Positions 4,192 through 35,666 of a stretch of 36,306 nucleotides of DNA are shown one piece after another. Origin of the DNA: an uncultured Lachnoclostridium sp. (GTDB taxonomy: Bacteria > Bacillota > Clostridia > Lachnospirales > Lachnospiraceae); contig CANOID010000016.1 in assembly GCA_947565985.1 (NCBI GenBank), positions 1 through 36,306 on the forward strand, read 5' to 3'. Made by a program: the position numbers and the translations under genes. The notes beneath the pieces are model-generated. The model saw nothing but the letters and a program-made list of their open reading frames with translations, did no database searches and was not told where the DNA came from. How positions within the stretch are numbered: position 1 is the stretch's first letter; every line of letters starts with the position of its first letter.

Positions 4192-5841
4192 TTATTTTTT
4201 CTGTACATATTTCAGACAGTCAAGTGTTACCGCAACAAGTATTATTATACCAGAGAACACAAACTGTAAGTTTGTATCAATTCCTAAAATAGTAAGCGAA
4301 TATGTAAGTGCAGTAAATATAAATACACCTACTACAACACCAGAAATCTTACCAATACCACCAGTAAAAGATATTCCACCTACCACACAGGCAGCAATGG
4401 CATCCATCTCCCAGCCCTGACCATAAGTAGCAGAACCAGAACCTACCATTCTTATACACTCAAGCCATGAACCAAATCCATATAAAACACCAGCCATAAT
4501 AAATGCACCTACTGTTACACGGAATACGGATATACCAGAAACAGCAGCAGCTTCTGCATTGCCGCCAACTGCATAAAGGTTTTTGCCAAATGTTGTTTTG
4601 TTCCAGATAAACCATACAATAATAACTGCGGCTACTGCCCAAAGTATAATTGTAGGAAAACCATTTATCTTTGGAATTATTATTGCAGGAATAGACTGTT
4701 CTATTGCACCGAATGAAACACCTTTAGTTGCATAAGTGGCAAGACCAAAAATTACTAACATATTAGCCATTGTTGAGATAAATGGGTGCATCTTGAACTT
4801 TGCAGTAAAAAATCCCGCAATTGTTGTAAAAAATGTACATAAAAGAATACACATAATAAGTGCAAAAAATATTCTGGCAATAATTGGCAAACCTGTAAAA
4901 TCGAAAATATGTCCAAACACAGAACCTGTGTTTATTCCTTGGTGCATAATAATTGTTCCAGTAGTTATTCCCATGCCAACCATACGTCCAATAGAAAGGT
5001 CTGTACCAGCAAGAAGAATAAGAGCTGCAACACCAAGTGCAAGAAATATACGTGGTGAAGCTTGCTGGAGGACATTTAGAACATTGTTATAAGTAAGCAG
5101 TGGTTGTTTTTTTACTATTGGTGTAATAATGCACAACATAATGAAAATTAAGACAATAGCAATATATAAACCATTCTGTAATAAAAATGATCTGGTATTA
5201 AATGAATATCTATAATTTTCCCATTTTTGCGTCTGTGATTCTATGAAAGTAAACTTTGACATACGCAGCAAGTCAATTAAATGATATTTATAAGTATATG
5301 CAGCGTGTCTTCTGTCTTTAATTTCTTGAAACTCTTTATTACGTTTCATTTTGGCATCAAACAATCGATTCTTATAGACATAATTCTCATCCTTAATTTC
5401 CTGATGGTCTGAAAGACTTGCTACTGTTGTAGTATGTTCTTGTTTTAATTCATCGACTTTTCTAGCATATCTCTTCCTTGCCGACTCTTTTTCCAGTTTA
5501 CAGCTTTCCTTAACTGGCTTATAATACTTATTGTCAAAATGTGCATTTAGGTAATTTTCGGCATCAGATACCAGCTTTGAAATTTCACTCTGGTTTTTTT
5601 GTTCAATTCCCTTTGCCTTTTCAAGCTGAGCATTCTTTTCTGCGATGGCAGTTTCTTTTTCTGCTTTTGTAAGAACGTGATCTCTTTTTATAGCATCAAT
5701 ATCATTCTGAAGAGAAATAACCTTATCTACTCCATCCAATCTAAGAGCGTCTATCTTTTTTTGAATCTTGCCAACATAATCGTCTATTGGCTTACGAAGC
5801 TGAATTTCTTGTTCAGCCGTGAGAATTTTTTCATTTGCCAT
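4192..5841 (-). CDS. mglC: Galactose/methyl-galactoside ABC transporter permease MglC with long N-terminal extension
   Basis: 549 residues; canonical MglC is about 335. Residues from about 210 form the hydrophobic permease, with family motifs AGTDLSIGRMVGMG and the repeats VVGGISFTGGIGKISG and FGKNLYAVGGNAEAA. Residues 1 to about 185 are highly charged, Lys/Glu-rich and helical, probably a cytoplasmic coiled coil. The ATG at 5841 has GGGGGAGA upstream. It is the last gene of mglBAC, 18 nt after mglA. The transporter imports galactose, glucose or methyl-galactosides. The extension is the odd feature; its role is unknown. Confidence 0.93.
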   Translation of the reverse strand: MANEKILTAEQEIQLRKPIDDYVGKIQKKIDALRLDGVDKVISLQNDIDAIKRDHVLTKAEKETAIAEKNAQLEKAKGIEQKNQSEISKLVSDAENYLNAHFDNKYYKPVKESCKLEKESARKRYARKVDELKQEHTTTVASLSDHQEIKDENYVYKNRLFDAKMKRNKEFQEIKDRRHAAYTYKYHLIDLLRMSKFTFIESQTQKWENYRYSFNTRSFLLQNGLYIAIVLIFIMLCIITPIVKKQPLLTYNNVLNVLQQASPRIFLALGVAALILLAGTDLSIGRMVGMGITTGTIIMHQGINTGSVFGHIFDFTGLPIIARIFFALIMCILLCTFFTTIAGFFTAKFKMHPFISTMANMLVIFGLATYATKGVSFGAIEQSIPAIIIPKINGFPTIILWAVAAVIIVWFIWNKTTFGKNLYAVGGNAEAAAVSGISVFRVTVGAFIMAGVLYGFGSWLECIRMVGSGSATYGQGWEMDAIAACVVGGISFTGGIGKISGVVVGVFIFTALTYSLTILGIDTNLQFVFSGIIILVAVTLDCLKYVQKK

Positions 5842-5859: not shown

Positions 5860-7368
5860 TTATAGGTATTTTGCGCTGAGTCTTAATAGCTCTTCCTGAT
5901 TCGTCTCTTTTGTATTTACAATTCCTGAAAGATGCCCATTTGACATTACACCAATGCGATTTGTAATGCCCAAAATCTCTGGCATTTCAGAAGAAACAAC
6001 GATAATTGTCTTGCCCTGTTTTGCCATATTTATAATCAGCTCATAAATTTCATATTTAGCACCAACATCAATTCCCCTTGTAGGTTCATCCATCATAAAT
6101 ACCTGAGGACTGCGTTCCAGCCATTTGCCCATAATAACTTTTTGCTGGTTACCTCCAGATAAACTTGAAATCATATCATCTGGTCCCATGCACTTTGTAT
6201 GCATAATTTTAATTTCTTTTGCCGTTGCTTTAACCATTTTTTGTTCAGAAAGTGCAAAACCAGATTTATACTGGGGCAAATTTGCAATTGTAGTATTAAA
6301 AGTGAGGTCTCCTTTTAAAAAAAGTCCATTTGCTTTACGCTCTTCTGTAATCAATGCAAAGCCATGGTCCATAGCCTCTTTTGCATTGTTAAAATTCATA
6401 AGGCGACCTTTAAAATAAACACGTCCTGCTGCTCTGGTTCTTATACCAAATATTGTTTCCATAAGTTCTGTACGCCCAGCACCAACTAAACCATACAGTC
6501 CAAAAATTTCGCCTTCTTTTACATCAAAAGTGACATCTTGCAGATAAGGTTCAAATTTTGTGGATAGATGCTGCACAGATAAAACAACATCCTTTGGTTT
6601 ATTGTCAATTGGTGGAAAACGGTTTTCAAGAGAACGTCCAACCATAGCAGCAATCAGCTCATTCATATTTGTCTCTTTGCTGCTTTTTGTCATAACTAGG
6701 TTTCCATCCCGAAGAACTGATATCTCATCGCAAATTTCAAAAATTTCATCCATTTTATGAGAAATATAAATTAAAGCAATTCCCTGTTTCTTTAACATTC
6801 TCATCATTTCAAACAGTTTAGCTACTTCTTGTACTGTAAGTGATGAAGTAGGTTCATCAAGTACAATAACCTTAGAATGATAAGAAATTGCCTTAGCAAT
6901 CTCACACATCTGTCTCTGTGATACAGACATATTTCGCATAGGCTGTGTAAGATTTACAGTCATACCTAGTTTTCTGAAAAGCTCAGAAGCTTCTTTCTTC
7001 ATTCTACCCTCATCTATCACCCCTAATGAGTTGACAGGATAGCGTCCCAGAAATAAATTATCAATTACATTTCTTTCCAAACACTGGTTCAGTTCTTGGT
7101 GAACCATCGCAATCCCATTTTCAAGAGCATCTTTGGGTCCAGAAAAACTTACATCTCTGCCGTCTAGCAAAATCTTGCCTTCATCTTTCTGGTATGTGCC
7201 AAAAAGGCATTTCATCATTGTTGATTTTCCAGCACCATTTTCACCCATAAGGCCCATAACCGTACCAGCTTTTACATCCAGATTGATGTGGTCTAAAACC
7301 CTGTTTCGACCGAAGGACTTGCTCATGCCCTGGATTGATAAGATGGTATCATTTTTCTTATCTCCCAT
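5860..7368 (-). CDS. mglA: Galactose/methyl-galactoside ABC transporter ATP-binding protein MglA
   Basis: 502 residues from ATG 7368 (AGGGG 8 nt upstream); a GTG three codons earlier overlaps that site and is less likely. It has two fused nucleotide-binding domains, the sugar-importer arrangement. The first has Walker A GENGAGKST (42-50), signature VSQRQM and Walker B VIVLDEPTSSL. The second has signature LSGGNQQKV and Walker B VFMMDEPTRGID. It energises uptake through MglC with ligand delivered by MglB. Length and motifs are normal. Confidence 0.96.
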   Translation of the reverse strand: MGDKKNDTILSIQGMSKSFGRNRVLDHINLDVKAGTVMGLMGENGAGKSTMMKCLFGTYQKDEGKILLDGRDVSFSGPKDALENGIAMVHQELNQCLERNVIDNLFLGRYPVNSLGVIDEGRMKKEASELFRKLGMTVNLTQPMRNMSVSQRQMCEIAKAISYHSKVIVLDEPTSSLTVQEVAKLFEMMRMLKKQGIALIYISHKMDEIFEICDEISVLRDGNLVMTKSSKETNMNELIAAMVGRSLENRFPPIDNKPKDVVLSVQHLSTKFEPYLQDVTFDVKEGEIFGLYGLVGAGRTELMETIFGIRTRAAGRVYFKGRLMNFNNAKEAMDHGFALITEERKANGLFLKGDLTFNTTIANLPQYKSGFALSEQKMVKATAKEIKIMHTKCMGPDDMISSLSGGNQQKVIMGKWLERSPQVFMMDEPTRGIDVGAKYEIYELIINMAKQGKTIIVVSSEMPEILGITNRIGVMSNGHLSGIVNTKETNQEELLRLSAKYL

Positions 7369-27719: not shown

Positions 27720-29315
27720 TTAATTCCAAACCCTAGTAATATAACTATAGCTAGTAGTAACATATCGATTGGCATCTTGTACATTTCTTTTACTAATATA
27801 AGAATAAGAATATGGTATATTATAATTAGCTTTGCACTCAGCCGCACATATACAATCACAAAATTCAAATGTCTGGTTAAACCTTGTTCTTAAATCAAAC
27901 TGTATAATATCAATTATCCGATTTTTAATCTTTTCTTTGGATACACACAATTCAAGTAGCAAAAGATACTGTTTATAAGAAATATCCTTAGAAATTTTGT
28001 TTGTATCAGCTTTCTGATACACTTTGCATTTAGCTTTGAAAAAATTGTATGAAACAGAACATATTTCTTCATATTTCATCTTAAAATTTGCAGGACTTTT
28101 TATAAGTGGCACTTTTCTGCCATCTAAAAGAGCAGTTACATCAATACAGGCTTCCTCAAATGCAAGTATAGTAAGAATCAACCACTGCATTCCTGTAATT
28201 ACAGGTGCTATGCCAGTAAACCCAGCAATCATTGTCGCGGTGACAAGGCTTTTTGACTGGAATGATGTATTTGTACTTACATAAGTCAGATTAATAAGAG
28301 TGCGTATAACAAGTAATCTCCTCACAATATATGTAAGATTTTGTTTCTCAGTTTCTTTACCTGCTATAAGGTATTCAAGTCCATAGTGTACAGTATTATA
28401 TTTGCTGTCAATATATGATGATAAAACACTTTGTGCATAGTGTATATATTTAAGTTTATTAGCATTACTACCAGCTTCTGCTTCTTTCAGAAGCTGGTCT
28501 TGGTTTAGTCCTTGGCTCCCATCATTTTCAAGCAGCGACTTGAAAAATTTTGCAACAGAAGAATTATTATCGCCACTGTCTTCTTTTTTACTGATATATT
28601 CTGTTGTCTCAATTTTAAATTCACTGACTTTTGAAACATCACAAACAAGAGATAATAAGCCATTATTAATAAGATTTTTAAATGCCTTAATCGGATTGCC
28701 ACCAGCACAATCATTTTTTAATTTTTTATCACTATCTTCCTCCGATAGCGTATCATTGTTTTTTTCACTTACATTATCTGAATTATCAGAATTATTGACA
28801 TCGTCTATTTTATATCCGCCATCTTCATACTTTATTGCTTCATCAAATAAACCTTTCTTAATACTACCCTTATTTCCGTTTGTAACAAACTCTTTTACAT
28901 TATCTATAACAGAAGTAACAATATAGTCTGAAATTTGCTCTAGAAATACCTCGTCTTCATCAAGCATATAAAAATCTCCAATTTCACATAATATGTCTCC
29001 TAACCTGTATAAATTGGAATATGCTTTTAGACTTTTTTCAGGTTTACATTCAAGATTTTTATTAATGACTTCTGTTAGCTCCAATTCTAAATCAGATATT
29101 CCTATGCCATCATATCCACCATAAGCAAGAAGACTGTATTCATCATATAATTCTTTATTATAGTTGCCAAAAACCATTTGAATAGCTGAACTGGCTGCCA
29201 TAGATACATAAGCCTCTGATGTAATAACTCTTACATTTTCTATAAATGCTGTAACCAAAGAAAGCATAATAGTAAAAATAAATATTAAAAATACAGTTAT
29301 ACTTCCCTTTTTGAT
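27720..29315 (-). CDS. DUF5702-type Tad locus protein, non-ATG start likely
   Basis: The first ATG (29267) begins inside the membrane helix, but the frame runs on upstream as IKKGSITVFLIFIFTI, the conserved N-terminus of DUF5702 proteins. No ATG, GTG or TTG lies between there and an in-frame TAA. ATC at 29313-29315 is 7 nt after a good GGGAG site and is the best candidate start (531 residues). The central region is soluble and Asp/Ser-rich; a hydrophobic patch lies around residues 335-385. Known family context is Tad pilus loci; function unknown. Frame and identity are firm, the start is not. Confidence 0.75.
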   Translation of the reverse strand: MKKGSITVFLIFIFTIMLSLVTAFIENVRVITSEAYVSMAASSAIQMVFGNYNKELYDEYSLLAYGGYDGIGISDLELELTEVINKNLECKPEKSLKAYSNLYRLGDILCEIGDFYMLDEDEVFLEQISDYIVTSVIDNVKEFVTNGNKGSIKKGLFDEAIKYEDGGYKIDDVNNSDNSDNVSEKNNDTLSEEDSDKKLKNDCAGGNPIKAFKNLINNGLLSLVCDVSKVSEFKIETTEYISKKEDSGDNNSSVAKFFKSLLENDGSQGLNQDQLLKEAEAGSNANKLKYIHYAQSVLSSYIDSKYNTVHYGLEYLIAGKETEKQNLTYIVRRLLVIRTLINLTYVSTNTSFQSKSLVTATMIAGFTGIAPVITGMQWLILTILAFEEACIDVTALLDGRKVPLIKSPANFKMKYEEICSVSYNFFKAKCKVYQKADTNKISKDISYKQYLLLLELCVSKEKIKNRIIDIIQFDLRTRFNQTFEFCDCICAAECKANYNIPYSYSYISKRNVQDANRYVTTSYSYITRVWN

Positions 29316-29329
29316 ATGTTTTCTCCCTT

Positions 29330-29521
29330 CTATTTAATTCCAAGGTCTTTATTGATTTCACTTCCATTTTTAGATATGCTGGAAAATGCCTTTTCTACTA
29401 TCTCTTTAATTTTATTTCTAAATATAACTATTAACATAATAAGAACCACTAGTATAAGAATCACCTCAATAATTCCCACACCCTCTTCATCATTCCAAAA
29501 AGCTTTTAACACATTAAGCAA
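29330..29521 (-). CDS. Flp1-like type IVb pilin
   Basis: 63 residues. LKAFWNDEEGVGIIEVILILVVLIMLIV is the typical Flp1-like signature: a charged leader ending in EEG, then VGIIEV and one hydrophobic helix. It starts at TTG 29521, 8 nt after GGGAG. This is the major pilin of the Tad locus, cleaved by the A24 peptidase encoded downstream. Confidence 0.88.
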   Translation of the reverse strand: MLNVLKAFWNDEEGVGIIEVILILVVLIMLIVIFRNKIKEIVEKAFSSISKNGSEINKDLGIK

Positions 29522-29536
29522 TACAATCGCTCCCTT

Positions 29537-31012
29537 CTACATATTTTGAAAAGCCGCAATTATTATTATTGCAAAAACTTCTACCATCATAAGCATCATA
29601 GGCATTAAAAGCTTTGTCCCAGCCTGCTCTCCAAGTATTTTTGCATTTTCACGTCTTTCCTTTAACACATCCGCAGCTTCATATTCGAGTATATTTAATA
29701 AATCAGCCGAACCTTTTTTTAAGTTCTGCATAAGCACTGTACTAAACTTCATATACTTTAAAAGCCCTATCCTTTTTCCAAATAACTCATATGCTTTTCC
29801 TTCATTCATGCCATTTTCAAGTTGTCTTTCTGTAAGCAGCATTTCTTCATACAGATAACGTTTTTTGCCACCATTTTTAAGTTTTCTTTTATATTCTTCT
29901 GCCATTCTGTACCATGCACCTTTACAGTTAAGTCCTGCACTTATTAAAAGTACAAATTTCTCGACAAATTCAGGATAATCAATGTGAAGCTCCTGTTCTC
30001 TCTGCTTTATCTTTTCCTTTGTCCTGCTGTCTAAAATTAATGGTATAAATGCAATAACAAGTATGCCTAGTGCAATAATAACCAGAATATAATTACTTTC
30101 TTGGTATTTATATGACACCTCTTTTCCTTCAATTACAGATGGAAGTTGTAAAAAGTCCTTGTCAATGGTTGACTCTGACAATTCTGTATATACATTTTTC
30201 CATTTGTCCCAAAGCATTTCACTTTGACTTTTTTCAACAGGAAGAACCATAAATTCTAAAGGCAGTTTCTTTTGAATTTCAAAATATGAAAATACTGCCG
30301 TTATCTGAACTACTTTAGGCTCTTTAAGCTGTGAACGCTCAAGTGAACCATCGCTGTCAACTATATTTTCTGTATCACATTCCCAAGATATTTCAATAGC
30401 ATTGTCTGGTATATGGCTAATAAGATTTAAACTTTGACTTACTTCTTCTGATGACTTGTTTTTACCAAGGTAATTGTCTTTTACATATTTCATAGCTTCG
30501 CTTAATTTGATTCTATATTCCTCACTGCTGTATCTTTTTGCAGGAATATTAATTATTATATCCTTTTTGTCTTTGCCAATAGAAACATTTAAGTCCTCTT
30601 CCTTATCTTGTCCACATGGCTGTTCTCTTTCTATATAGTAGTTATTTTTTAATATACTACTTTCACTATATGTCAATATAAAAGTTATAAGAAATAAAAG
30701 TATAAAAGATATGGCTATGGCAACTATTGAAAACAGCCTGCAAAAATAAAGTTTTTCGATATCATCACTGTCAAAACTTGTATACAGTTTTTTCATGTCT
30801 TCAATTTTACTGTTCTTAACTTGTATTTGCAGTTTATACTTTGACAACATAAATATAGCATATGATGCTGGATATAGTTTTTTTAAAAGTACATTTTCAT
30901 GCTCTGGTATAAATTCTAAATCAGTGTTAGAATACCTACATTTAATAAATATAAAAACTGCTATTCCTGCCAGTAAAAAAATACAGCAGATTATGATAAC
31001 AATTTTAAACAG
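29537..31012 (-). CDS. tadC: TadC-like type II/IV secretion system F protein
   Basis: 491 residues if started at CTG 31010-31012, or 437 from the first ATG (30850). The in-frame 54 upstream codons encode a membrane helix (IVIIICCIFLLAGIAVFIFI) that fits a TadC N-terminus, and no ATG, GTG or TTG lies before the preceding in-frame stop. AGGTG lies 6 nt before the CTG, which overlaps the tadB 3' end. The C-terminal T2SSF domain is clear (EFVEKFVLLISAGLNCKGAW, LLKYMKFSTVLMQNLKKGS). An insert of about 200 residues separates the helices. Inner-membrane platform protein of the pilus. Confidence 0.82.
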   Translation of the reverse strand: MFKIVIIICCIFLLAGIAVFIFIKCRYSNTDLEFIPEHENVLLKKLYPASYAIFMLSKYKLQIQVKNSKIEDMKKLYTSFDSDDIEKLYFCRLFSIVAIAISFILLFLITFILTYSESSILKNNYYIEREQPCGQDKEEDLNVSIGKDKKDIIINIPAKRYSSEEYRIKLSEAMKYVKDNYLGKNKSSEEVSQSLNLISHIPDNAIEISWECDTENIVDSDGSLERSQLKEPKVVQITAVFSYFEIQKKLPLEFMVLPVEKSQSEMLWDKWKNVYTELSESTIDKDFLQLPSVIEGKEVSYKYQESNYILVIIALGILVIAFIPLILDSRTKEKIKQREQELHIDYPEFVEKFVLLISAGLNCKGAWYRMAEEYKRKLKNGGKKRYLYEEMLLTERQLENGMNEGKAYELFGKRIGLLKYMKFSTVLMQNLKKGSADLLNILEYEAADVLKERRENAKILGEQAGTKLLMPMMLMMVEVFAIIIIAAFQNM

Positions 31013-31745
31013 TTATGTCACCTATCCTTTCGCTCCATTTATATGCGGCAACATAGATTACAAGCAGCACAGTCATCACAGGCCTTGCATTTAATGTATA
31101 AAGACAGTCAAGAAAACCAGGCGAACTTACCCAGAAATACAATATTATTGCTAGTGGTATAAGTGTCATAATTTTGCCTTCCATTCTTTTTCCAGCTATC
31201 ATTGTCTTTATTTCACGGCTGACCTCTATTTTACTGCTTATTTTATCTGCAGTTGACCTTGAAACTTCAATAAGATTGCCACCTGTACGCTTTGCTGTCT
31301 GAAATACTTCTGCAAAATTATTAATATCTTCAACTTTACAATACTGGGCAAATTCTATAAGAATTATTTCAAGTGGTTGGTTAAGCCTTAGCTTTGAATT
31401 AATTGCATCTAGCTCTCTAAGCATTACAGATTTATCGCCATACAAAAGTAATAAGTCACTTTTTGCCTCTATAAAAGCGTTTTCAATTGAGTATCCTGCA
31501 TTTAATGCAGATGAAAGACCAGTCATAACTTCTCTAAATTCAAGATTCATCTGCCAACGCCATTCTTCAATACTTTTTTTCTTATAAAGTTTTATATTAA
31601 TAATTCCATAAATTAAAGCTAAAACAAATGATACAACAACTGCTCTGTAGAATAAAAACAGCAATATAAATGCTTCTACAAATCCTGTAATAAATGCTTT
31701 TAGATACTCCGTACTTTTTATAAATCCTCTTAACTTTTTACTCAA
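31005..31745 (-). CDS. tadB: TadB-like type II/IV secretion system F protein
   Basis: 246 residues from TTG 31745, with AAGGAG about 5 nt upstream. The TTG overlaps the cpaF stop (TTGA, 31742-31745), so it is coupled to cpaF translation. N-terminal helix, the T2SSF domain (FREVMTGLSSALNAGYSIENAF, FAEVFQTAKRTGGNLIEV) and two C-terminal helices. Platform protein partner of TadC. Confidence 0.88.
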   Translation of the reverse strand: MSKKLRGFIKSTEYLKAFITGFVEAFILLFLFYRAVVVSFVLALIYGIINIKLYKKKSIEEWRWQMNLEFREVMTGLSSALNAGYSIENAFIEAKSDLLLLYGDKSVMLRELDAINSKLRLNQPLEIILIEFAQYCKVEDINNFAEVFQTAKRTGGNLIEVSRSTADKISSKIEVSREIKTMIAGKRMEGKIMTLIPLAIILYFWVSSPGFLDCLYTLNARPVMTVLLVIYVAAYKWSERIGDITV

Positions 31746-32185
31746 ATTAACTCCTTTTTAACGGATAAGCCTGCGTGTGCTAATTTATCAGTATTTAAAA
31801 GTTTATTGCCTGTAGCACGTAGATCTCCTATTATTTTTCCTTTAGAGCTTGTGCCAGTTTCAACAAACTTATATATTGGCTGCACAGTTATATCTCCATC
31901 CTTAACGCCTGTCACCTCTGCTATTTCAAGTACCTTTCTGGACTTGTCCCTTAGCCTTCCAAGCTGTACTACTATATCTATTGCCGAGGCAATTTGGTTT
32001 CTCACTGCTAACAGTGGAATATCCATTCCCATAAGTACAAGTGTTTCAAGTCTATGTAGCATATCCAATGTACTATTTGCGTGACCTGTGCTAAGGCTAC
32101 CATCATGACCTGTATTCATAATACTTAAAAGCTCACACGCAGCAGCATCTCTTACCTCTCCTAATATAATTCGACTAAGACGCAA
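31742..32185 (-). pseudogene. cpaF: C-terminal fragment of the CpaF/TadA pilus ATPase, cut by prophage insertion
   Basis: 147 residues covering only the end of a CpaF ATPase: RIILGEVRD, then AACELLSIMNTGHDGSLSTGHANS and QIASAIDIVVQLGRLRDKSRKV. The N-terminal domain and Walker A loop are missing. Upstream of the LRLS codons the frame turns into unrelated sequence and meets a stop, and the conserved Pro-Asp before RII is absent. The break therefore lies close to 32165-32190. Everything rightward looks like phage. The fragment cannot be an active ATPase; tadB remains coupled to it. Confidence 0.88.
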
Positions 32186-32582
32186 TATAAAATAATGAAA
32201 AATTATCTAAGACTAAACAAAGACTATTTCCCTATATAGTCTTTGTTTAGTCTTTAAGCCTATTTTTAAAGCAATATAACTATTTTGCTAAATTATAGTA
32301 TAAAATTTAAAGTTTTTATATTTAATATATTAGTAATATCTTTATTTTTATATAAGAAATCCAACATTAAATGTTGTTTTTTGTAGAATTTTGTATAGAC
32401 AACTCTTTTGAATTATGATAATATAATATACAACTAGTAGCATTTTTGTATATTATTACATATAAACTATGCTATTTATGCAATTTTTTGTAACATTTTA
32501 ACACATGAAAAGATATGAATATGGCACAAAATTGTATTATACTGTTGCAATATAGAAATCCATTTAGAAAGGACAAGCTTCT
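32186..32582. other. Prophage end: gene-free AT-rich stretch
   Basis: About 400 nt between the cpaF break and the metallopeptidase gene. It holds the 19-bp palindrome (32209-32254) and very AT-rich DNA with repeated TTTTTGTA motifs. Candidate plus-strand promoter elements for the following gene are TAGACA (32396-32401)-17-TAATAT and a TATACT at 32538-32543. No gene is seen. The attachment site should lie at its left edge. Confidence 0.6.
32209..32254. terminator. Perfect 19-bp palindrome near the prophage boundary
   Basis: AAGACTAAACAAAGACTAT (32209-32227) and its exact reverse complement (32236-32254) with an 8-nt loop. T-rich tracts follow only loosely on either strand. It would stop or slow transcription between phage and host, or serve as a protein-binding site. 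Confidence 0.55.
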
Positions 32583-33191
32583 ATGAGTAACAATGTAGTA
32601 CAGCTAGATTCATACATAAAAAAGGCTAAGGTGATGTCTATGTGCAAGACATTAAAGAAAATACAACATAAAACACCAGATGAACTACTTAAAGAATATA
32701 ACATAACTAATACAAGTCCTATAGATATAGAAAAATTAGTAGCGTCTATAGGGATATCTGTTTTACCTATGAATTTTTCAAAATTGAAAAAGTATATTGG
32801 AACAAAAAAAGATATATTAGGGCTTGTGATAACAAGAGAAGACGATGCTTTTATCTTTTACAAAGAGGGATCTTCACTAAACAGGAAACGCTTTACCATT
32901 GCACATGAATTAGCTCATTGTTGCAAATTTGAAGATTATAGAAAACCGCATATAGAATACAGGACAGATGATACTATTGATGATAAAACTGAAATAGAAA
33001 TGGATATTTTTGCAGGAGAATTATTAATACCAATTAATATATTAAAACGTGAATATATTAATATGCAATTTCCTTCTTCTGAACTTTTAGCAAAACAATT
33101 TCAAGTTTCGATTAAAGTAATGGAAGCTCGTTTAAATCATTTAAACATTTCATATTTTGATAAGAGAGGATTTCCAAAATTATATGGCTAA
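32583..33191 (+). CDS. ImmA/IrrE-family metallopeptidase
   Basis: 202 residues. HELAH at 108-112 (FTIAHELAHCC) is the zinc-binding HExxH motif, and EMDIFAGELLIP is the family's second helix. Known members cleave a partner repressor (ImmR in ICEBs1, DdrO for IrrE). No HTH domain is fused and no adjacent repressor gene is visible. AAAGGA lies 9 nt before the ATG. Its 3' end overlaps the two-TM gene by 8 nt, so that protein is a plausible partner or substrate (inference). Confidence 0.88.
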   Translation: MSNNVVQLDSYIKKAKVMSMCKTLKKIQHKTPDELLKEYNITNTSPIDIEKLVASIGISVLPMNFSKLKKYIGTKKDILGLVITREDDAFIFYKEGSSLNRKRFTIAHELAHCCKFEDYRKPHIEYRTDDTIDDKTEIEMDIFAGELLIPINILKREYINMQFPSSELLAKQFQVSIKVMEARLNHLNISYFDKRGFPKLYG

Positions 33192-33756
33192 TAATGATTT
33201 AGAAAGACCTATCAGTACATATGTTCCTAAGAAAGAAATAGATGAAGAAACATTATTAGAAATGATTAAACAATCTAATATTGACTTTTCTGCATTAAGT
33301 AACTTTAAAGAAGGAGTACAATATACACAACCTGACAATTCTGAAAAAACAGAATATAAAGAAAAAGTTAATACTGAATCAAAGAATTATCAGTATGATA
33401 TTGATGCTATGAATAAGCATTTTTATTCTATATATATAAAGGTTCTATCGCCTGAACTAAAAAAGAATGAAGATTTGAAGAGAAGGCAAAAACCTGAGTT
33501 AATGAAGAACATATTTAAACTTATTAAAGGGCAATTTATTGCTACATATGCAATTCTTTTTATGTTGATTGTAGTAGTTGCAATTAGTCATATACTTCAA
33601 ATATCAGACAGTTCTATAAAGCTTATATTTAGTTTTATGAAATTTTACACAACTTCTATTGTTGCTGAATTAATTGTTATATTATTTTTTATCGTAAGGA
33701 ATATTTTTGATAAATCTATTTATGACTTATTTAAAGATTTTGATAAAAGAAAGTAA
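33184..33756 (+). CDS. Two-TM membrane protein coupled to the metallopeptidase
   Basis: 190 residues from ATG 33184, overlapping the metallopeptidase stop; a TTG at 33157 is an alternative. Residues 1-117 are soluble, charged and helical. Two membrane helices follow (118-139, 153-173) with a short charged tail. I do not recognise the family. The layout (soluble domain plus TM hairpin) resembles membrane effectors of phage exclusion and defence, but no motif proves this. The stop codon coincides with the end of the adjacent IS-like relic, so the native C-terminus may have been longer. Confidence 0.75.
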   Translation: MANNDLERPISTYVPKKEIDEETLLEMIKQSNIDFSALSNFKEGVQYTQPDNSEKTEYKEKVNTESKNYQYDIDAMNKHFYSIYIKVLSPELKKNEDLKRRQKPELMKNIFKLIKGQFIATYAILFMLIVVVAISHILQISDSSIKLIFSFMKFYTTSIVAELIVILFFIVRNIFDKSIYDLFKDFDKRK

Positions 33757-33985: not shown

Positions 33986-34093
33986 ATGGAGGACATACTA
34001 CCTACTGATTTAATTGCAATAGAGAATTTAACTCCAATAGAAGAGTATGTGTTATATATTTTGTATTGGAGAATTGTTTCAAAAAAATATTGA
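33986..34093 (+). pseudogene. Orphan short reading frame, probable gene remnant
   Basis: A 35-residue frame (MEDILPTDLIAIENLTPIEE...) with protein-like composition and no ribosome binding site. The frame is open upstream to a TAA at 33902 without another start. It may be the 3' end of a gene whose 5' part was removed by the adjacent IS-like relic. Family not recognised. Confidence 0.3.
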
Positions 34094-34112
34094 AATATAT
34101 AGTAAATCAAAG

Positions 34113-34160
34113 AAGAGAAAGAAAACCACTTACTTAAAAATAAGTGATTTTCTTTCTCTT
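34113..34160. terminator. Long bidirectional terminator-like hairpin
   Basis: AAGAGAAAGAAAACCACTTA (34113-34132) pairs with TAAGTGATTTTCTTTCTCTT (34141-34160) over 20 positions with a single mismatch and an 8-nt loop. The arms are purine/pyrimidine-rich, giving U-rich 3' arms on either strand. It separates the rightward cassette from the leftward phage genes. Confidence 0.65.
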
Positions 34161-34197
34161 TCAATTTATAAAGTATATGTTTTCTTATGACAGCATA

Positions 34198-34304: not shown

Positions 34305-35060
34305 TCAGAAATTTTTAATCAGAAGTTCCTTATAACGTGGTTTTTTATCCCTCACGCATACTAAATTATGTCCTCTATCAACACTTGTAATGTCGTAATC
34401 ATTATATAGATTTCTGATATATTCGCAATCATTATACGACAATATAAATTTGCCTTTTATATTATCAAGGATAGCTTTTAGCTTTACGTGGTCTTCTGGT
34501 GAAAATCCTGTATAATATTTTTCTGTTTCATAGTATGGTGGGTCAAGATAAAACAGGGTGCTATTTCTATCATATATCCTTAAAATACGACTATAATCTG
34601 CATTTTCTATCACGACCTGTTTTAACCTATTTGCCACAACCTGTATATATTCTATGGCTTTAGGCATATTTCTAGGACGCACTCCGAACGAATCTAATCT
34701 TGCTCCAAAACTTTCCTTTATCAGTATAAAAAATCTTGCTGCCCTTTGAATATCAGTAAGTCCACGCATTTCTAACTGTGCTAGTGCATCAAAAAACTGT
34801 TCCCTAGACATTAATGTGCAATCTAGTTCTTTTTGTAGCTCCTCTGGATGATATTTTACACATCTAAATAAATTAACTAGGTTTCCATTGATATCATTAT
34901 AAACTTCTGTTTCAGCGTGCCTGTCAGAAGCAAATAATACCCAACCTGCACCGCCAAATACTTCAACGTAACGATTAAACGTTCCCTTTTCTGGAAACAA
35001 TGCCAAAATTTTATTTCTTAATAATTTTTTACCGCCCACCCAGCTTATGAAACTATTCAT
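34305..35060 (-). CDS. D12-class DNA adenine N6-methyltransferase
   Basis: 251 residues. FISWVGGKKLL and VEVFGGAG (32-39) form the SAM-binding motif; DPPY (173-176) is the catalytic motif IV; LSYNDCEYIRNLY is the conserved C-terminal segment. This is the Dam/MboII type. AAGGAAAA precedes the ATG. No restriction endonuclease is adjacent, so it is an orphan phage methylase, likely protecting phage DNA or tuning expression. Recognition sequence unknown. It follows the amidase in the same direction. Confidence 0.9.
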   Translation of the reverse strand: MNSFISWVGGKKLLRNKILALFPEKGTFNRYVEVFGGAGWVLFASDRHAETEVYNDINGNLVNLFRCVKYHPEELQKELDCTLMSREQFFDALAQLEMRGLTDIQRAARFFILIKESFGARLDSFGVRPRNMPKAIEYIQVVANRLKQVVIENADYSRILRIYDRNSTLFYLDPPYYETEKYYTGFSPEDHVKLKAILDNIKGKFILSYNDCEYIRNLYNDYDITSVDRGHNLVCVRDKKPRYKELLIKNF

Positions 35061-35093: not shown

Positions 35094-35666
35094 TTAATAC
35101 CTCTTATTATGATTTACCACAGCCTTTATTATTGCTTTTGCCACAGCGTCCCTATCTTTCCTGTAAAGTATTGCATCGTCCCTATCATCCACAAAACACA
35201 CCTCAATAAGTATTGCTGGTGCTTTGGTATGGTTCAGAAAGTACAGACCTTTATTTACCTTAACCCCACGATTTGTATATCCAAGTCGTTTCATCTGATT
35301 GCATATCCTTTTAGCAATATCGCCCTTATCAGATACGTTTTCAGTGAGTAGCACTTCTGTACCACCAACTTTTCCATCGCCTTTTTTGTCAGCTCTGCCA
35401 GAATTAAAATGTATAGATATATGTAGGTCTGCATCTGTGACAGCATTACATTTTGCACAGATTTTTTGTAAAACGTCTGTCTGGTTTTTGCCGTTGTTGA
35501 CTGTACAGTTGATAGCTTTAATGCCTTTTTTCTTCAAAAGCTTTATAACTTTTTTTGTAATATATCTATCTTCTTTGGATTCATCCAAGAAGTCTGAAGC
35601 CCCACAGGCAATCTTGCCAGATGGGTTGTGTCCGCCGTGGACTGTTACTGTTTTAATTTTTTTCAT
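35094..35666 (-). CDS. Phage N-acetylmuramoyl-L-alanine amidase (endolysin)
   Basis: 190 residues, a single Amidase_3 domain: VHGGHNPSG (H10/H13), ISIHFNSG and ILIEVCFVDD supply the zinc ligands and catalytic Glu. It cuts the amide bond between MurNAc and the stem peptide. No signal peptide and no separate cell-wall-binding domain, so export needs the holin encoded just upstream. The ribosome site is weak (GAGAT). Confidence 0.92.
   Translation of the reverse strand: MKKIKTVTVHGGHNPSGKIACGASDFLDESKEDRYITKKVIKLLKKKGIKAINCTVNNGKNQTDVLQKICAKCNAVTDADLHISIHFNSGRADKKGDGKVGGTEVLLTENVSDKGDIAKRICNQMKRLGYTNRGVKVNKGLYFLNHTKAPAILIEVCFVDDRDDAILYRKDRDAVAKAIIKAVVNHNKRY

Follow-up and report, generated by a model that had tools for sequence, protein, structure and literature searches.

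A standalone M78 metalloprotease gene paired with a two-transmembrane protein gene in a Lachnoclostridium prophage: a candidate undescribed system

The gene pair and its locus

The DNA considered here, referred to as the window, is a stretch of 36,306 nucleotides (nt) from an uncultured Lachnoclostridium sp., and is the entire contig 16 (CANOID010000016.1) of a 185-contig, 2.76-Mb genome (GCA_947565985.1). It contains two overlapping forward-strand genes: gene 1 (32583-33191), encoding a standalone M78 (ImmA/IrrE-like) zinc metalloprotease of 202 amino acids, and gene 2 (33184-33756), encoding a membrane protein of 190 amino acids with a long N-terminal part and two transmembrane (TM) helices. 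The pair is a conserved unit that recurs in temperate phages and in chromosomal cassettes. It is also a good candidate for an undescribed two-gene system, probably a defensive one, the case for defence being drawn from its location and the company it keeps. A preliminary description of the locus had drawn both open reading frames (ORFs) at these coordinates with an 8-nt overlap (33184-33191), as is found: gene 1 runs from an ATG at 32583 to a stop codon at 33189-33191, and the open frame of gene 2 spans 33157-33756 with a preferred ATG start at 33184.

The protease identity proposed in that description is upheld, with gene 1 matching the Pfam family Peptidase_M78 at 56.2 bits (cut-off 22) and combining, as an ImmA/IrrE protein should, an M78 domain bearing the HExxH motif (HELAH, residues 108-112) with a downstream glutamic acid (Glu137). 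The residues H108, E109, H112 and E137 are invariant in all 26 aligned proteases, and Glu137 is presumably the third zinc-site ligand, as in IrrE. The best PADLOC defence model for gene 1 is capP (66.2 bits), and the nearest solved structures to the protease profile are those of CapP (7t5t, E 1.2e-15) and IrrE (3dte). A helix-turn-helix (HTH) profile built from ten seeds found no HTH ORF within 250 bp of gene 1, which agrees with the earlier statement that no repressor accompanies the protease.

The membrane protein has, as first described, two hydrophobic helices, located near its C-terminus at residues 119-137 and 157-175 (Kyte-Doolittle). Glu162 lies inside the second helix, in a column that is Glu in 17 of 22 aligned members including the window's (Gln or His in 3), and Phe175 ends it, in a column that is Phe in 21 of the 22. 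Charge bias weakly favours a cytosolic position for both termini, the bias being small and non-uniform across members. No family reached its curated cut-off for gene 2 in the libraries scanned (Pfam, PHROG and others), and membership of a known housekeeping family, raised beforehand as a possible objection, is thus not seen. Assignments to SUR7, DUF7004, NifT or PorB proteins were rejected, all scores falling under curated cut-offs, and none of the PADLOC 2.0.0 models identifies gene 2 (best E 0.038, none at 0.01). Among the 22 two-TM members, PHROG matches were obtained to phrog_35754 in 6, phrog_5346 in 4 and phrog_13343 in 3.

The pair lies inside a serine-integrase prophage that splits tadA, the ATPase gene of a tad-type secretion locus included in the minus-strand genes at 27720-32185. 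Only the C-terminal half of tadA is in the window (31742-32185, minus strand, the last codons past 32176 being phage DNA; Pfam T2SSE profile positions 214-287), and the N-terminal half is found on contig 14 of the same genome (G000:C14:2015-2665, profile positions 7-212), where a 524-amino-acid serine integrase (PHROG integrase, 358.7 bits) adjoins its end. When the flanks are joined at a 2-bp AG core, an in-frame TadA results, ...LLKTSLRMRPSRIILGEVRDAAA...; the half sites on the phage side are inverted copies. The pair is placed in the prophage because tadA is split beside the integrase and because this join restores the frame; the right-hand attachment core (32175-32176) lies some 400 bp away from gene 1. 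Excision at the split (window 32175-32176; contig 14 at about 2052) would restore tadA in frame, and lysogeny may therefore switch the Tad pilus off through the split, prophages in comK being a comparable gene interruption.

To the right of the pair, all on the minus strand, are a Dam-type phage DNA adenine methylase (34305-35060; phrog_56, 257.4 bits), a phage endolysin of amidase type (35094-35666; phrog_435, 182.6 bits) and a weak holin candidate (E 0.0052), the methylase gene separating the pair from the lysis genes. The contig ends just past the lysis genes, the remainder of the prophage being unassembled. Both the opposite orientation of the pair to the lysis genes and its position between these and an attachment site had been claimed previously and are confirmed; its strand is in fact opposite to all phage genes seen in the window.

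Identification of relatives

With the window's own proteins as queries there was no match in INPHARED and no confirmed viral or genome contig. Single-sequence searches with gene 2 gave matches in 2 of 200 genomes of the family, one of them the window's own, and in 1 of 28 genomes of the genus, again the window's own. The second family match (G123, L010) was dropped, having 22% identity and lying inside a longer ORF without an adjoining M78 relative. One genus relative, L043, has an M78 gene that is 30% identical to gene 1, lacks an HTH neighbour and overlaps a two-TM ORF, forming a diverged pair; its membrane protein gave nothing useful as a query. Single-sequence searches found almost nothing; the family was reached solely through profiles that include L043. 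In L043 itself a 30-nt direct repeat (5401-5430 and 7053-7082) brackets the pair, as if a cassette had been inserted.

A profile of the two proteases (window and L043) gave matches in 116 of 392 genomes of the order. Initially 30 places of a longer match list were opened: the top 7 non-self loci each continue directly into a two-TM gene, as do 0 of the 22 lower loci opened. Two more pairs lie further down the list, in G382 and G483, and the pairs are therefore not cleanly split off by rank. The G483 pair (contig 47, L328) has its membrane gene broken into two ORFs. Viral and genome collections were scanned with a pattern from the aligned pairs, and the best 80 of at least 255 viral and the best 80 of at least 251 genome relatives were taken, so that the proportions given below are valid for this sample. 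Together with 29 loci of the order, the window and L043, these make 191 loci, of which 15 lacked an HExxH ORF at the matched position; a further 22 of the remaining 176 were removed at 80% identity, leaving 154. The two-TM label was set by a Kyte-Doolittle threshold and the HTH label by the ten-seed profile.

Conservation of the pair

A two-TM gene lies directly downstream in 39 of the 154 dereplicated M78 loci, and its presence is sharply divided by the HTH label. The 60 loci with an HTH beside or within the M78 ORF have none (0/60), and the 94 HTH-less loci have a two-TM gene downstream in 39, upstream in 12 and in neither place in 43 (39/94 vs 0/60, Fisher p 1e-10). The background rate of two-TM genes, taken from the other neighbours on the same strand at these loci, is 18 of 447. 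By longest ORFs the two genes overlap in 26 of the 39 pairs, by 4 nt in 11 and by 8 nt in 4.

The reverse search, with a profile of 22 two-TM proteins against the 392 genomes of the order, gave seven matches below 1e-5 and all seven adjoin an M78 gene; two of the seven (the window and G335) contributed to the model and five did not. A further 23 weaker rows were opened, with a true pair in G511 and the split-gene pair in G483, and no HExxH neighbour appeared in the remaining 21 (in three of which no ORF was obtained). The profile is incomplete, with the known pair G377 missing from its matches. A lack of joint conservation had been named as a possible refutation, and the forward and reverse counts show the reverse, namely that the genes are conserved together.

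The similarity matrices of protease and membrane protein correlate across the 39 pairs (Spearman 0.20, a value reached in none of 2000 permutations), which is the expectation if both proteins travel together. On a quick tree of 157 proteases, with L128, L165, L270 and L272 hand-labelled as two-TM (42 instead of 39), the HTH label changes 17 times vs 48 when shuffled and the two-TM label 18 times vs 37. The window groups with L098, L127, L128 and L213, all pairs, with an SH-like approximate likelihood-ratio (SH-aLRT) support of 96. A single origin of the pair was rejected, since 18 changes denote clustering and not one clade on this quick tree, in which L043 forms a long branch. In five other loci (L154, L158, L166, L234 and L288) the M78 gene is preceded by a two-TM gene and followed by a gene of about 350 amino acids, which we take to be 'beta protein'-like, and this arrangement is possibly a three-gene variant.

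Occurrence in phages and chromosomes

Pairs are present in several named phages, the two TM helices of whose downstream genes were computed. Gordonia phage Polly carries a metalloprotease (gp29) and a membrane protein (gp30) between its tail and integrase genes; in Burkholderia phage Carl1 the pair is gp1/gp2 near cosL; in Mammaliicoccus phi31 it lies downstream of holin and endolysin with an 8-nt overlap; and in Pseudoalteromonas phage ACA1 it is again gp1/gp2, with gp1 annotated 'antirepressor'. Among the sampled loci, the pairs of L130 and L314 adjoin terminase and portal genes, that of L131 follows an M23 endopeptidase or endolysin gene, and that of L128 is near integrase and tape-measure genes. 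In L098 the pair is beside a gene matching a PHROG endolysin (123 bits), the rest of the contig being chromosomal in appearance. The lone cassettes L312, L313, L315 and L316 have no recognised phage gene in the 8-13 kb read, and their flanking genes are presumably housekeeping-like.

A P2 record (OU784750) and a Salmonella P2-like phage carry pairs between the replication endonuclease and portal genes. The P2 pair is at least partly matched in 49 of 5426 complete E. coli genomes, with more than 80% of the pair in 3; the remainder match about half of it, at about 78% identity, over the protease gene and the first part of the gene that follows. In both E. coli loci opened the pair lies between the replication endonuclease gene and the portal gene. 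The cos-proximal interval of P2, from gpA to gpQ, is a hotspot with many anti-phage systems (PMC9122126). The main text of that paper holds none of the words ImmA, IrrE, protease or M78, and 'peptidase' occurs twice, elsewhere. These pairs strengthen the initial suggestion that the window pair occupies a phage accessory slot.

Leader, inverted repeats and HEARO RNA

The pair was said to have its own AT-rich leader, and the forward-strand interval 32186-32582 does have 20% GC vs 34% for the window. Promoter-like matches are not in excess between 32000 and 34400 (13 found vs 17.7 expected). Terminator-like sites are (5 found vs 0.4 expected), and three of them are variants of a single hairpin. 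The strong hairpins proposed on both sides of the pair are sustained on the left, where repeat and terminator scans find a perfect, terminator-like 19-bp inverted repeat on the attachment-site side (32209-32254). Beside gene 2 on the right there is instead a HEARO RNA, and the same scans place a separate terminator-like 23-bp inverted repeat, 91% complementary, in the interval between HEARO and methylase (34113-34160). The hairpin-bearing stretch to the left of the methylase (34079-34182) has an 83%-identical counterpart on contig 15 (G000:C15:13664-13767).

The HEARO RNA (RF02033; 33753-33963, forward strand) scores 89.3 bits vs a gathering score of 83, and is a solo element, one of 10 matches dispersed in the genome, of which 8 are over the gathering score; 9 of the 10 copies share the left end GT[ACG]AACTAC. 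The element has landed on the end of gene 2, because its first bases, G and then TAA, form the last base of the final codon and the stop codon. The four closest relatives of gene 2 extend about 4 to 26 residues beyond the window's C-terminus in the alignment, and for this reason a short C-terminal tail may have been lost through the insertion. After the copy on contig 4 (L308) comes an open frame of 392 or more amino acids, which we take to be IscB-like. HEARO or omega RNAs are guides for IscB-type nickases and nucleases (PMC9755519, PMC9581776).

Proposed function and alternatives

The function put forward, tentatively and as something a little short of an even chance, is that of a prophage-borne module in which a protease activated by infection or DNA damage acts on the membrane protein, leading to abortive infection. 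The cytosolic M78 zinc protease would act on, or be held by, the membrane protein of the overlapping gene, and infection or DNA damage would be the trigger that switches it on. The active protease would then cut or release the N-terminal arm, predicted to be cytosolic, a membrane pore would open, and the infected cell would shut down too early for the rival phage to mature. The preliminary description had likewise proposed that the protease would sense infection or damage and act on the membrane protein, with depolarisation of the membrane as the putative result, a model that extends what is known of ImmA, PprI/IrrE and CapP.

In the classical M78 pairs ImmA/ImmR, PprI/DdrO and CapP/CapH, the protease cuts an HTH repressor once triggered (PMC12323379, PMC10904395, PMC13373217), with single-stranded DNA activating CapP (PMC13373217) and also sensed by PprI (PMC10904395). 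Because the two-TM pairs of this sample have no HTH neighbours, their gene content suggests that the repressor, the usual partner, has been replaced by a membrane effector. Gene 2 is probably a substrate or client of the protease, by analogy with the known M78 proteases that cut a repressor when triggered, and membrane damage would probably be the output. Defence is favoured because of the hotspot location and because M78 genes open the Pycsar-like operons described in the next section.

Several observations count against this abortive-infection module. No conserved cleavage motif was seen by eye in the alignment of the N-terminal arm. The proteobacterial two-TM partners share the layout of the Gram-positive type, and homology of the two was considered and is not demonstrable (hhalign probability 22%). 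Several pairs lie outside phage slots, and the 'antirepressor' annotation in ACA1 fits a role in lysogeny as well. By script, 43 of the 94 HTH-less M78 loci have neither two-TM partner, a few of them (e.g. L128, L165) being threshold misses, and HTH-less M78 proteases thus occur in other settings too.

Among the alternatives, a toxin and antidote arrangement survives best and is nevertheless unlikely. Here the two-TM protein would be a membrane toxin kept harmless by a protease that cuts or holds it, and loss of the protease or its inhibition by a rival phage would free the toxin. The small overlapping genes and the presence of the cassette at unrelated chromosomal sites as well as in phages speak for it, and the pairing counts support it equally with abortive infection by an activated protease; however, the described M78 proteases ImmA, PprI and CapP cleave after a trigger and are not constant antidotes.

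Somewhat more doubtful is a lysogeny switch, in which the membrane protein would be a sensor or anchor that keeps the protease at the membrane and then lets it go to cut a prophage or host repressor. ImmA-type proteases do control lysogeny in staphylococcal phages (PMC12323379), and the ACA1 annotation points the same way, but the four lone cassettes are without recognised phage genes, the P2-like pairs sit in the accessory interval beside cos, and the window pair is on the strand opposite to the phage genes seen.

It is improbable that the two-TM protein serves superinfection exclusion or lysis, by blocking DNA entry or as a holin or antiholin matured by the protease. Proximity to endolysin-type genes in the window, L131, phi31 and L098 is in its favour, as are weak matches to the Pfam family Phage_holin_3_6 in 2 of the 22 members (best E 0.00051), the window's gene 2 not among them. 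Yet the window pair is opposite in strand to the lysis genes, phi31 has its own holin and the window a holin candidate, the P2-like loci opened are not beside lysis genes, the L098 contig is otherwise chromosomal-looking, and chromosomal cassettes exist.

A chance juxtaposition of an orphan protease with a small, unrelated membrane gene is scarcely credible: it could appeal to the single-sequence search that found gene 2 in 1 of 28 genus genomes, but that search overlooked the diverged L043 pair, and the pairing conserved in the forward and reverse counts refutes it.

It is possible, with slightly more reserve than for the abortive-infection module, that the pairs represent a widespread undescribed class of phage-carried immunity, in which an M78 protease has a membrane effector in place of a repressor and proteolysis leads directly, in one step, to membrane damage without transcription; two-TM effectors of separate descent may have been taken up on several occasions. 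M78 proteases are known as repressor-cutting switches, and the contrast of 39/94 vs 0/60 suggests a second wiring of the same switch. The pair would also offer a lead on the PHROG families phrog_35754, phrog_5346 and phrog_13343, to which no function is assigned.

Comparison with known systems

No published description of the pair was found in the literature outside subscription papers, preprints and supplements. The nearest published statement found is that phage modules of TIR and two-TM SLATT proteins at times include a zincin-like metallopeptidase (PMC9503650). Those modules, as here, bring a two-TM protein and a metallopeptidase together in firmicute phage neighbourhoods; however, no Pfam SLATT match was obtained among the 22 members at E 0.01 and no TIR gene was seen at this locus. 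CarolAnn gp43/gp44 and lambda RexAB, for which a model of activated depolarisation in prophage exclusion exists (PMC6426606), are likewise prophage gene duos that include a membrane protein, but the soluble partner there is a weak DUF4747 match and not a protease, and four putative TM domains are described vs two.

The closest comparisons on the protease side are with M78 systems. ImmA/ImmR of ICEBs1 and phages also places an M78 protease on a mobile element, with the difference that no ImmR-like repressor adjoins the window protease. The protease domain of gene 1 matches the RmrA models of RosmerTA, at best with 44.4 bits over positions 123-293 of 380, a partial match given that these models span 357-400 positions; no second RosmerTA gene was seen, and gene 2 has no RosmerTA match in PADLOC. 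CapH/CapP, which jointly with CapW/BrxR controls BREX, Pycsar, CBASS and DISARM operons (PMC13373217), shares the M78 protease, CapP being the best PADLOC and Protein Data Bank (PDB) relative of gene 1. The window pair differs in having no CapH-like HTH gene and a membrane protein as partner, and no known immune operon was found 3' of gene 1, where gene 2 and the HEARO RNA lie instead.

The three Pycsar-like loci L095, L096 and L097 have an operon of an HTH-less M78 gene first, a protein of about 500 amino acids and a PycTM-type membrane protein, the PycTM effector scans covering L096 and L097. The middle protein, with a weak NUDIX match as its sole profile match, is by its motif presumably cyclase-like. 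In L097 the membrane protein matches PycTM with 74.8 bits in PADLOC and 30.7 bits in Pfam (cut-off 27.2), and about 200 bp separate the operon from a preceding amidase gene whose product shares 60% identity with the window endolysin over 173 residues. These operons differ from the window pair in the middle gene and in PycTM itself, to which the two-TM profile has an hhalign probability of 0.3%, and no Pycsar model of PADLOC matches either gene of the pair or the methylase. What the two share is the plan: a repressor-less M78 protease as the first gene, followed by a membrane effector.
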